From Armatimonadota bacterium (GTDB lineage: Bacteria; Sysuimicrobiota; Sysuimicrobiia; Sysuimicrobiales; Kaftiobacteriaceae), in assembly GCA_031081675.1 (NCBI GenBank), contig JAVHLZ010000002.1, forward strand, positions 33,167 to 97,166: a stretch of DNA of 64,000 nt. The letters are read 5' to 3'. The notes under the pieces were generated by a model, which did not search any database, was not told the DNA's origin, and saw nothing but the letters and a program-made list of their open reading frames with translations. Of the stretch, positions 33,390 through 35,990 are shown piece by piece. Made by a program: the position numbers and the translations under genes. Every line of letters begins with the position of its first letter. Positions within the stretch are counted from its first letter, which is position 1.

Positions 33390-34219
33390 GTCGCCTCGCG
33401 TCGGTTTTCGCCGGCCTGCACCGCCCTGCCCTGATCCCGTTCCTGATGGCGGGCGACCCGGACCCGGAGCGCTGTATCCCGCTGCTGCGCGCCGCCGCCC
33501 GGGCGGGAGACATCCTGGAGGTGGGCATCCCCTTTTCCGATCCCATCGCCGACGGCCCCACCATCCAGCGGGCCGGCGGGCGGGCCCTGCGCGCGGGGGT
33601 GACCGTCGCCGCGGCGCTGGAGATCGTCAGGCAGGTGCGCCAGACCGCCGATACCCCCGTGGTGGTCCTGACCTACGCCAACCCCCTCCTGCAGTTCGGG
33701 GTGGACCGCTTCTGCGCCCGGGCCCGGGCAGCGGGTGTGGACGGGGTGGTGGTGCCCGACCTGCCGGTGGACGAGGCCGACCTCCTGATCGGCTCCGCCC
33801 GGCGCGCCGACCTGGACACCATCTTCCTGGTCGCGCCCACGACCTCCGACGCGCGCCTGGCCCTGGCCGCCCGCCACAGCCGCGGCTTTCTGTACTGCGT
33901 CTCGCTCACCGGCGTCACCGGCGCGCGCGATGCGCTCCCGCCGGAGGCGGAAGCCCTGGTGCGCCGCGCCCGGGCGGTGACGTCCCTGCCGGTCTGCGTG
34001 GGCTTCGGGATCGCCACGCCGCAGCAGGCGCAGGCCCTGGGGCGGGTGGCCGACGGGGTGATCGTGGGCAGCGCGCTGGTGGAAGCCGCAGAGCGCGCGA
34101 CCGACCCCGTGGGGGCGGTGGAGGATCTGCTCGGGCGGCTGCGCGGCAGCCTGGCTGCGGTCTCCCGCGGCGGCCCTCCATTGTCGGGACCGGCACCTCC
34201 TCCCGACGCGACGGGGTGA
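33386..34219 (+). CDS. trpA: tryptophan synthase alpha chain
   Basis: Cleaves indole-3-glycerol phosphate and passes indole to TrpB. The 277-residue barrel has the catalytic Glu and Asp in [19 protein letters not shown], then [25 protein letters not shown] and [16 protein letters not shown] 33386 overlaps trpB by 4 bp. The C-terminal about 20 residues are Pro/Gly-rich and extend past the conserved domain. Confidence 0.96.
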
Positions 34220-34743
34220 TGGGGGCGGTCGGAAGCATGACCATGCGTCCACCCGCGGTGCGCACCCTGTGCCTGCTGCGGCGGGACGACCAGGTGCTGC
34301 TGCTGCGGCGCCGCCGCCCGCCCAACGCGGGTCTGTGGAACGCCGTGGGAGGCAAGGTCGCGCCTGGCGAAGATCCCTGGGCGGCGTGCGTCCGCGAGGT
34401 TTTCGAGGAGACCGGCATGCGGATCGCCCGACCGCGGCTGCGCGCGGTGGAGTTCGTGTCGGTCCGCCCCGCCAGCCTCCTGTGGGTGCTGTTGGTGTTT
34501 GTTGCCGTCGCCCCGCCGGGGGAGCCTGTGGCGTCGGATGAGGGCGAACTCCACTGGGTGCAGGTCGACGCCGTCCCGACCCTGCCGGTGCCGGTGGATC
34601 TCGGGCTGCTGTGGCCCATCCTGTGGGATAGGGATCAGGTCATGACAGTCCGGGTGGACCTGGAGGGCGAAGACGCCTCCACCATGACCCGCATGGCGAT
34701 CCTGGGCCCCGCCGACCGCGCGCGCCCCCTGTACCCGCCGTAG
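34219..34743 (+). CDS. Nudix hydrolase (MutT / 8-oxo-dGTP type)
   Basis: A protein of about 174 residues with an intact Nudix box GGKVAPGEDPWAACVREVFEETGM (REVFEETG core), so metal-dependent pyrophosphohydrolase activity is expected. The flanking RTLCLLRRDDQVLLLRR and the GLW-x-x-V-GGK lead-in resemble MutT/MTH1-like enzymes. GTG 34216, ATG 34219 and ATG 34237 are all possible starts. ATG 34219 is used because it overlaps the trpA stop (TGATG). It is the last gene of the trp unit and has no obvious link to tryptophan. Confidence 0.82.
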   Translation: MGAVGSMTMRPPAVRTLCLLRRDDQVLLLRRRRPPNAGLWNAVGGKVAPGEDPWAACVREVFEETGMRIARPRLRAVEFVSVRPASLLWVLLVFVAVAPPGEPVASDEGELHWVQVDAVPTLPVPVDLGLLWPILWDRDQVMTVRVDLEGEDASTMTRMAILGPADRARPLYPP

Positions 34744-34747
34744 CCCC

Positions 34748-34924
34748 GGGGACTGCCCCCTTCTGTGGGGACTGTCCCCACCTCCCGTCGGGGACTGTCC
34801 CCTCCTGCCGGACGGAGACGATCCCCGTTCTCCGTTCAGGGACGGTACCGCTCCCCTGGCCCGGCACATGTCTCCTCCCGTCGGAGCGGGGGACTGTCCC
34901 CAGACTGACCGGGGGACTGTCCCC
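34748..34924. repeat. cluster of five interrupted palindromes GGGGACTGTCCCC
   Basis: Within 177 bp there are four exact copies of GGGGAC-T-GTCCCC (34767-34779, 34790-34802, 34889-34901, 34912-34924) and one variant with a C in the second arm (34748-34760). A more degraded GGGAC...CTCCC lies near 34839-34855. Each copy is a 6-bp inverted repeat around a central T. Spacing is irregular (from 10 to about 86 bp). It fills the gap between the Nudix gene and the DUF1646 promoter. It looks like a dispersed palindromic repeat family rather than an operator array. Confidence 0.85.
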
Positions 34925-34951: not shown

Positions 34952-34957
34952 TATAAT
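34952..34957 (+). promoter_or_regulatory. -10 box TATAAT of the DUF1646 gene
   Basis: A perfect TATAAT follows CGTCGCG. Its last two bases overlap an in-frame ATG at 34956, so that ATG could not be used from this promoter. The next in-frame start, GTG 34968, lies 10 nt after the box, again suggesting a leaderless or nearly leaderless transcript. Confidence 0.5.
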
Positions 34958-34967
34958 GGTGACCGTT

Positions 34968-35990
34968 GTGGACGTCGTCGTTGCCATTGACCTGATCATC
35001 CTGGTGCTGGTCCTGGTGCTGCCGCTGCTCCTGCACCGGGTGGAGCAGAACCTGGAAGCTTTCCTGTTCGCGATGGGGCTCCTCTCCGCGGCCGGGGCGG
35101 GAGTCCTGTCCCGGCCGCTGGTCGTCGCCGCCCTCACCCACCCGCTGCCCATCACGGCGGCCGTGTTTCTGGCGGGGCTGGTGTTTCACTGGACCCGCAA
35201 CCACCTGGGGACGCTGCTGGTCCGCCTGCGCCTGGTCCTGCCCATGCGGGCGGTGGTGGCCGTGGTGGTGACGGTCCTCGCCCTGCTGAGCAGCATCATC
35301 ACCGTGATCATTGCCTCCCTCGTCCTGGTGGAGGTGGTCAGCGCGCTAGGCTTCCGCCGTGAGGACGAGACCCGCCTGGTGATTGTGGCCTGCATGGCCA
35401 TCGGGATGGGAGCGGCACTGACGCCGGTGGGCGAACCGCTGTCCACCATCGCCACCGCCAAGCTGGGGGCCGACTTCTGGTTCCTGCTGCGGCTGCTGGG
35501 GCCCTGGGTGATTCCCGGGATCCTGGCGCTGGGAGGCGTGGTGGCGCTGCTGCCTCTGCGCTACCAGGGCGAGTCTCTGGCCGAGACGGGACCCCAGGAG
35601 ACCTACCGCAGCGTGGCGGCCCGGGCGGTGCGCGTCTACGTCTTCGTGATGGCCCTCACCCTGCTGGGGGAGGGGTTCCGGCCCCTGATCGACCGCTACA
35701 TCATCGGGCTGGACGCGCGGGTGTTGTACTGGATCAACACGGTCTCGGCCATTCTCGACAACGCCACCCTGACCGCCGCCGAGATCAGCCCGCGCATGAC
35801 CCCGCAGCAGGTGCGCGCGGTGCTGCTGGGCCTGCTCATCAGCGGGGGCATGCTCATCCCCGGCAACATTCCCAACATCATCGCCGCCAACCGCCTGGGC
35901 ATCCGCAGCCGGGCCTGGGCGCGCTGGGGAGTCCCCCTGGGGGTGGTCCTCCTGGTAGTGTACTTCGCGACGCTGTTTTTCATCCGATGA
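34968..35990 (+). CDS. DUF1646 family membrane transporter
   Basis: A polytopic membrane protein of 340 residues with about 9-10 hydrophobic helices. Diagnostic stretches are IGMGAALTPVGEPLSTIATAKL, NTVSAILDNATLTAAEISP and LISGGMLIPGNIPNIIAANRLGI, which resemble the discontinuous-helix motifs of the ArsB/NhaD ion-transporter superfamily. DUF1646 proteins are predicted cation transporters and are linked to sodium in other bacteria. Here a complete Mrp sodium/proton antiporter operon follows, supporting a role in cation homeostasis. GTG 34968 is preferred over ATG 34956, which overlaps the -10 box. Confidence 0.8.
   Translation: MDVVVAIDLIILVLVLVLPLLLHRVEQNLEAFLFAMGLLSAAGAGVLSRPLVVAALTHPLPITAAVFLAGLVFHWTRNHLGTLLVRLRLVLPMRAVVAVVVTVLALLSSIITVIIASLVLVEVVSALGFRREDETRLVIVACMAIGMGAALTPVGEPLSTIATAKLGADFWFLLRLLGPWVIPGILALGGVVALLPLRYQGESLAETGPQETYRSVAARAVRVYVFVMALTLLGEGFRPLIDRYIIGLDARVLYWINTVSAILDNATLTAAEISPRMTPQQVRAVLLGLLISGGMLIPGNIPNIIAANRLGIRSRAWARWGVPLGVVLLVVYFATLFFIR

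Follow-up and report, generated by a model that had tools for sequence, protein, structure and literature searches.

The stretch of DNA analyzed here (64 kb, referred to as the window) carries the genes trpA, NUDIX and DUF1646 in this order and, between the latter two, an array of short palindromes of the form GGGGAC-T-GTCCCC, of which the interval 34748–34924 holds four exact copies (GGGGACNGTCCCC) and a fifth with one mismatch (Table 1); no further exact copy is present in the 64-kb window. A cluster of near-identical 13-mers far above chance, flanked by NUDIX on one side and DUF1646 on the other, had been noticed in an initial sequence-only reading. Both the location and the excess are borne out, as a first-order Markov model of the window predicts 0.056 exact copies per 64 kb, equivalent to 2.0 per 2.29-Mb genome. 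The signal resides in the exact copies and their clustering: at up to two mismatches the window is not enriched (27 matches versus 22.1 expected, a number reached in 19 of 100 shuffles). Steps between units amount to 19, 23, 24 (to the decayed copy at 34814), 99 (from 34790 to 34889) and 23 bp. The GTG at 34968 is, judged from the sequences of relatives, the likely start codon of DUF1646.

Table 1. Features of the palindrome array and its neighboring genes (positions in the window).
Feature	Position	Strand	Remarks
NUDIX gene (PF00293)	34216..34743	+	upstream neighbor; stop codon ends at 34743
Palindrome copy with one mismatch (GGGGACTGCCCCC)	34748..34760	+	4 bp past the nudix stop codon
Exact 13-mer palindrome (GGGGACTGTCCCC)	34767..34779	+	
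Exact 13-mer palindrome	34790..34802	+	step of 23 bp from the copy at 34767
Core separating the two half-arrays	34803..34888	no strand	86 bp; contains the decayed copy
Decayed in-phase copy (GGAGACGATCCCC)	34814..34826	+	2 mismatches; step of 24 bp
Exact 13-mer palindrome	34889..34901	+	
Exact 13-mer palindrome	34912..34924	+	step of 23 bp from the copy at 34889
TATAAT before DUF1646	34952..34957	+	27 bp downstream of the array end; read by eye
DUF1646 gene (PF07854)	34968..35990	+	downstream neighbor; likely start; mechanical ORF start 34938

Comparison of the site with related genomes

In relatives, trpA, nudix and DUF1646 are likewise kept together. The distance from the nudix stop codon to the GTGGAC at the start of DUF1646 (GTGGAT in genome G014) is 224 bp in the window, 32 bp in G021, 27 bp in G017 and G013, and 3 bp in G020 and G019, and is thus 3–32 bp in five of the eight relatives; the gaps of G014, G016 and G018 hold about 170 to 300 bp of different sequence (the nudix match in G018 being partial). 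Neither the 13-mer nor its GGTGAC forms occur in any of these eight gaps, a comparison that excludes G015, whose contig ends inside DUF1646. Because all eight gaps are devoid of the 13-mer and five of them are short, insertion in this lineage is the most likely origin of the array. In the gap of G016, a single near-palindrome, GGATCCTGGTTCC, fits the general shape with one mismatch. As read by eye, TATAAT lies 8–10 bases ahead of the DUF1646 GTG in six of nine genomes including the present one, and this closeness suggests a leaderless or nearly leaderless DUF1646 transcript. In G014, C-terminal DUF1646 fragments are found between nudix and the intact DUF1646 (L293, 1380–1480), perhaps as a result of local duplication.

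Distribution and architecture of the arrays

The genome to which the window belongs (G000; 2.29 Mb in 50 contigs) harbors 43 exact copies with any central base, 42 of them with A or T in the center, and the corresponding reversed control patterns occur once and not at all, respectively. Forty of the 42 A/T-centered copies fall into 10 multi-copy clusters. A crude ORF model trained on seven window genes, which did not retain the transposase ORF on contig C39 described below, places all nine non-window clusters in gaps between ORFs, three of them overlapping an edge by 5–74 bp; the 74-bp overlap, at L261, contains three palindromes unless the gene start is further in. Of three copies that stand alone, the same model assigns two (C1:134414 and C33:14395) to ORFs, and these may be chance occurrences; it places the third between ORFs. 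The sequence-only reading had proposed to count the 13-mer genome-wide and to map its intergenic bias, and would have been given up had copies been absent elsewhere and a deletion left the neighboring promoter unaffected; copies do exist elsewhere, the 43 exact ones being dispersed and mostly extragenic.

Palindrome pairs with spacers of 9–12 bp were detected in one of 43 genomes of the window's phylum, namely G000. A looser pattern, GGNGWCNGWCNCC, was useless for this comparison since it matches all 43 genomes; by its counts G000 stands out (176 versus 61 in its own control), the top other genome having 91. The 13-mer as such (42 copies in G000) is also present in G021 (15 copies), G019 (11), G020 (2) and, with one copy each, in G014, G022 and G041.

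The sequence-only reading had described the spacing as irregular; it is in fact regular. Counting exact copies together with the close variant GG[GT]GACWGTC[CA]CC, 29 of 41 intervals measure 23–25 bp (22 of 23 bp, six of 24 bp, one of 25 bp), two measure 47 bp and four exactly 99 bp. The sequence between the palindromes behaves differently: among 31 ten-base spacers, those from different loci agree at 3.00 of 10 letters, versus 2.95 expected from pooled and 3.28 from column composition, and those within one locus at 3.6 of 10, with two identical pairs. Likewise, four clusters including that of the window have cores of equal length (86 bp) with only 22–34 of 86 letters identical, which by this measure are non-homologous. 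With the palindromes masked, nothing convincing in the way of homology was found among the clusters of this genome except for a local duplication in C1. The 63 units of the 10 clusters comprise 40 exact copies, 15 with one mismatch and eight with two to four, an intact share that is overestimated because the clusters were located via intact copies. In the arrays of G000, then, palindromes and lengths are retained and the intervening sequence is not. Some arrays of other genomes have repeated or conserved spacers (L053, L064, L083, L101), which is what freshly copied arrays would show. In Thioalkalivibrio sp. XN8 (L083, L101, L146), paired 13-mers are separated by 12 bases that form a palindrome of their own (AGGACCGGTCCT, AGGACATGTCCT). 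A separate repeat family, with many matches of 40–175 bp at about 74–93 percent identity, is present at C1:5500–17000 of G000 (L256 and L257).

Several 13-mer sites are common to more than one genus. Comparing 19 fetched stretches, which cover 14 of 15 copies of G021, nine of 11 of G019, both of G020 and the single one of G014, we found that both flanks of the G000 cluster at C3:11454 and one flank of the cluster on C29 are homologous to 13-mer-bearing stretches of other genera in the family; the other G000 clusters, including that of the window, have no such counterpart among these stretches. Gaps with the 13-mer are likewise common to G021 and G014, and to G021 and G019. At the C3 site, G000 has an array in 23-bp steps, G021 a pair 77 bp apart and G019 one copy whose flanking bases are complementary. 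Elements of G021 and G020 resemble each other (about 69–76 percent over 107–124 bp, palindromes included), as do four elements of G019 (91–102 bp at 79–87 percent), and this common sequence therefore gives the elements of those genomes the appearance of repeat families. Both tandem and inverted arrangements are found in relatives, and G019 and G014 have palindromes that are longer by a few to seven bases at each end.

As single-stranded DNA, the 13-mers are predicted to form a 5-bp stem, and a three-base CWG loop is common to the folds of two 13-mer versions, GGTGACAGTCACC, GGTACCAGGTACC and a 27-base palindrome of G019. The array stretch folds better than its own shuffles, with z-scores of -2.5 as RNA and -4.2 as DNA. 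An Rfam scan of the region up to E 1 gave no match, and promoter and terminator scans of the region returned nothing, a T-tract terminator included.

Palindromes beside RAYT genes

G000 encodes four Y1 transposases, on contigs C39, C32, C34 and C6, all matching the NCBI model of REP-associated tyrosine transposases (RAYTs), NF047646; two score above its cut-off of 80 bits (C34, 87.4; C39, 81.2) and two below (C32, 75.0; C6, 74.1). The search for a REP-associated transposase, likewise proposed at the outset, led to the RAYT on C39, which has the same palindrome as the window upstream: a one-mismatch copy stands 98 bp ahead of its start, and the nearest exact copy 121 bp ahead; the 13-mer is confined to this upstream side. 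With 227 aa, the C39 RAYT is a short one; it matches PF01797 with 36.7 bits (cut-off 23), and HLH and YIHANP motifs can be read in its sequence. A domain scan up to E 1 returned PF01797 alone and no HTH, and the PDB contained only a weak match, TnpArep 4er8 (E 0.031). The C34 RAYT has a sub-threshold HTH_29 match (15.3 bits versus a cut-off of 28.1).

The three other RAYTs adjoin different palindromes: GGTGACAGTCACC at C32 (8 copies in the genome), GGGGTCTGACCCC at C34 (19 copies, mostly single; on both sides of the RAYT, at positions 63 and 1068 of L032) and GGGGTCTGTCCCC at C6 (19 copies, in arrays). All four palindromes fit GG-nnn-CWG-nnn-CC, the arms of the C6 family being incompletely complementary. 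The GGGGTCTGTCCCC arrays have random spacers as well, and steps of 16 bp account for eight of 13 intervals if only exact copies are counted; with copies of up to one mismatch included, 16 bp is found in 11 of 17 intervals, 26–27 bp in five and 21 bp in one. Arrays of this kind on C8, C9, C10, C25, C43 and C6 (L298–L303) show varied spacers of 3 or 13–14 bases. Copies of GGGGTCAGACCCC (L304 and L305 on C7 and C6, and L032) are mostly preceded by ATTTT, pointing therefore to a conserved flank in that family, unlike the 13-mer.

To what extent such palindromes accompany RAYTs elsewhere was assessed with the exact pattern GGnnnCWGnnnCC. In the window's phylum, with all 28 RAYT matches taken and 45.4 kb of near and 36.9 kb of far sequence, 18 palindromes were counted at up to 600 bp from a RAYT and one beyond that distance; 13 of 28 loci have them near, of which G000 contributes three, and five control centers gave 0, 0, 1, 0 and 1 near RAYTs; this count is not independent, as the CWG shape was first noticed on those very loci. 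A second set came from genomes with paired 13-mers, which are present in many unrelated genomes (at least 118 loci, L051–L168). The pair pattern fixes the pitch at 22–25 bp, and these loci therefore say little on pitch elsewhere. Taking one locus per genome from 80 listed loci yielded 53 genomes, of which 50 were searched for RAYTs (L124, L126 and L127 were left out). A RAYT match with E up to 0.001 was obtained in 44 of the 50 (15 above the cut-off) and none in six; this lends weak support, since RAYTs are common anyway, with matches in 70 of 100 genomes of a second phylum, that of a Nitrospira genome (35 above the cut-off). The corresponding figure for the window's phylum is 12 of 43 (eight above). 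Near the 30 RAYT loci of the motif-bearing genomes, which are best-scoring loci rather than a random sample, 26 palindromes lie near and three far, in 10 of 30 loci, and control centers gave 2, 1, 0, 0 and 0 near; the remaining 20 loci have none near. Four of the 10 loci (L204, L207, L212, L219) carry inner bases that differ from the selecting 13-mer. RAYTs with the 13-mer GGGGACWGTCCCC on both sides are found at L203, L213, L214 and L225. At L213, from a Halomonas halodenitrificans genome, three GGGGACWGTCCCC copies lie on each side.

In the second phylum, where the count is independent of the loci on which the shape was noticed, the 29 new RAYT loci, also chosen as best-scoring, gave none near and one far, i.e. 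0 of 29 loci with GGnnnCWGnnnCC within 600 bp. Ten of 17 well-scoring RAYTs there (L236–L255) are accompanied by inverted repeats around GGGTCAGGTCTTG or close forms, and many long RAYTs have, in place of the 13-mer, a non-palindromic repeat such as GGGGTCAGGTCTTG. From the 0 of 29 loci and the other repeats present there we conclude that only a subset of RAYTs goes with the CWG palindrome. Long RAYTs at L172, L174, L200 and L201 likewise have such GGGTCAGGTCTTG-type inverted repeats at their flanks; by their sequence, the GGGTCAGGTCTTG-type repeats are probably the published GGGGWSAS repeats. The 13-mer is also seen apart from RAYTs: G022 and G041 have the 13-mer and no RAYT match, and the four RAYT matches of G021 have none of its 15 copies within 600 bp.

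A tree was computed from 60 of 87 RAYT rows (those below 180 bits were left out); in it, the sister of the C39 RAYT is a RAYT of G019 which likewise adjoins the 13-mer. The two do not occupy one orthologous place, since the homologous neighbor sits on opposite sides. For tree labels, one mismatch within 250 bp was accepted where an exact palindrome was absent nearby. With all labels including 'none', 21 changes are needed versus a shuffled mean of 25.0 (one of 200 shuffles as low), mostly owing to palindrome-less loci; individually, GGTGA (two of 500 shuffles as low) and 'none' (0 of 500) cluster. A single origin of each palindrome variant is not seen in the tree: GGGGA needs seven changes (144 of 500 shuffles as low), and GGGGT, GGTGC and GGTAC change no less often than in shuffles.

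Discussion

Taken together, we favor the interpretation that the cluster between nudix and DUF1646 is a non-autonomous element of the REP/TIR type inserted at this site, with the 13-mers as cognate sites of the C39 RAYT, to which we assign a probability of about 0.72. The sequence-only reading had left open whether the 13-mers are a REP-like mobile family, multiple operators or overlapping RNA hairpins; dispersed, mostly extragenic copies, a RAYT with the same palindrome and the absence of the 13-mer from this site in relatives speak for the first of these, and the RNA hairpins have become the weak part of that proposal. We infer the C39 RAYT as the enzyme and, along with it, binding, strand specificity, cleavage, movement and selection on pitch.

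Among known systems, TIR repeats, which flank Y1 transposase genes (TIRYT genes, together forming TIRtrons) and have the consensus GGGGWSAS, come close; some are dispersed families, many of them in dimers or clusters, as described in the available text of Di Nocera 2013 (PMC3733652). The left part of the 13-mer, GGGGACAG, fits GGGGWSAS, but the repeat described here is a 13-bp palindrome with a CWG center, in fixed-pitch arrays with random spacers. TIRYTs, which probably correspond to RAYT group 1, or subclass 2.1 in the portion of Quentin 2018 available to us (PMC6006769), possess a C-terminal HTH domain, whereas none was matched in the C39 RAYT. In that portion, the 2018 survey states that REP-like sequences were not found beside genes of subclasses 2.1 and 2.3 and leaves the TIRYT link open. 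The REPs and REPtrons of E. coli, Stenotrophomonas and Marinomonas, as far as outlined in the accessible parts of Corneloup 2021 (PMC8266576), resemble our system in having dispersed extragenic palindromes with a HuH/Y1 enzyme beside some of them. Specifically, the 13-mer shares with GTAG REPs that it is extragenic and multi-copy (by the crude ORF model, with two lone copies in ORFs), and the C39 ORF shares with RAYT/TnpAREP proteins the Y1 HuH domain, the Y---NP signature and the match to the REP_Tyr_transpos model. GTAG REPs, however, measure 20–40 bp rather than 13, and the GT[AG]G foot tetranucleotide is absent here: a logo of 51 oriented units reaches at most 0.35 bits at the seven positions before the palindrome. 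REPINs or BIMEs are similar in combining several palindromes per element and in the tandem and inverted arrangements seen in relatives, but G000 has neither a conserved linker nor strict inverted pairing, and the orientation of the central base is mixed among clusters. The array is thus neither a GTAG REP, lacking the tag and being too short, nor a REPIN, lacking a conserved linker, and we file it as a previously undescribed form of RAYT-associated palindromic repeats. Literature searches did not find GGGGACAGTCCCC; papers containing shorter pieces of it, of its complement form or of GGTGACAGTCACC were, by title and beginning of the abstract, not on bacterial repeats, and among the search results the palindrome was nowhere named as a bacterial repeat.

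For other RAYTs, binding to a folded single strand and cutting and rejoining beside it have been described, as presented in the available sections of three papers (PMC8266576, PMC6006769, PMC3733652). By analogy, a unit on exposed single-stranded DNA would form a hairpin of 5 bp topped by a CWG triloop, and the C39 RAYT, a putative HuH/Y1 single-strand transposase, would recognize this hairpin and cut and rejoin beside it. Units or whole arrays could thereby spread into intergenic gaps and multiply in tandem, after which spacers would mutate freely while palindromes and pitch stay. A constant loop and stem foot combined with variable, mostly paired inner bases is the trace that such recognition would be expected to leave. 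The non-homologous spacers and cores in G000 nevertheless count against a simple copy-and-paste process, because copying would not predict them. Also against this interpretation are the many RAYTs that have no such palindrome nearby (all 29 loci of the second phylum and 20 of 30 in motif-bearing genomes), the G021 copies away from the RAYTs of that genome, and the gaps with the 13-mer in more than one genus, which speak against free mobility; no target duplication came to notice. As to the pitch, our preferred guess is that it is kept through binding by a multimer of fixed geometry.

The strongest competing explanation, possible though clearly the less probable one in our view, is that the arrays are phased double-stranded sites for a protein, either a RAYT turned regulator or chromosome organizer or some other palindrome binder, which may act on the DUF1646 promoter. 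It would account for 55 of 63 units having at most one mismatch among spacers that are random in sequence and fixed in length, yet this intact fraction is overestimated by the way the clusters were located. The step classes of the C6 family (16 and 26–27 bp) differ by about one helical turn, and these 10–11 bp would fit double-stranded binding. The array also ends 27 bp upstream of a TATAAT common to relatives, and in some gaps the 13-mer is shared by several genera; against a function at this promoter, relatives keep the nudix–DUF1646 pair without the array, and the conserved or repeated spacers in some arrays of other genomes look like recent copies. There is also a speculative notion, which we regard as rather doubtful: the RAYTs of this branch would be sequence-specific array binders, each with a private palindrome (constant GG...CWG...CC, variable inner bases) and some with a private pitch (23–24 bp; 16 and 26–27 bp), and selection would keep both site and spacing and leave the sequence in between free to vary. 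Under this notion existing sites may be re-templated in place, which would explain how one gap carries the same 13-mer in three genera in three unrelated architectures.

That the palindromes act mainly as RNA, through 3'-terminal hairpins of the nudix mRNA which would terminate transcription or stabilize the transcript, as is the case for some REPs, we consider unlikely. The position of the array directly after the stop codon and its better-than-shuffled folding would suit such a role, but the T-tract terminator and the Rfam match are absent, only one of nine genomes compared at this gene pair has the array, and the different palindrome beside each RAYT would be left unexplained. Chance repetition of GC-rich sequence or an assembly artefact, of which the lone copies within ORFs at C1:134414 and C33:14395 might be reminiscent, is refuted by the counts (43 exact copies, where about 2 are expected and the control has 1) and by the paired 13-mers of many unrelated genomes, and we give it practically no weight.

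Returning to the 13-mers as cognate sites of a RAYT, the finding is that four RAYTs within one genome adjoin four related but distinct 13-mer palindromes, one of which recurs beside RAYTs of unrelated genomes. As each RAYT has a palindrome of its own, cognate recognition is directly testable by swapping the inner bases. Beyond this, the combination of fixed spacing and random spacers in two families raises the matter of a role for a supposedly selfish repeat.
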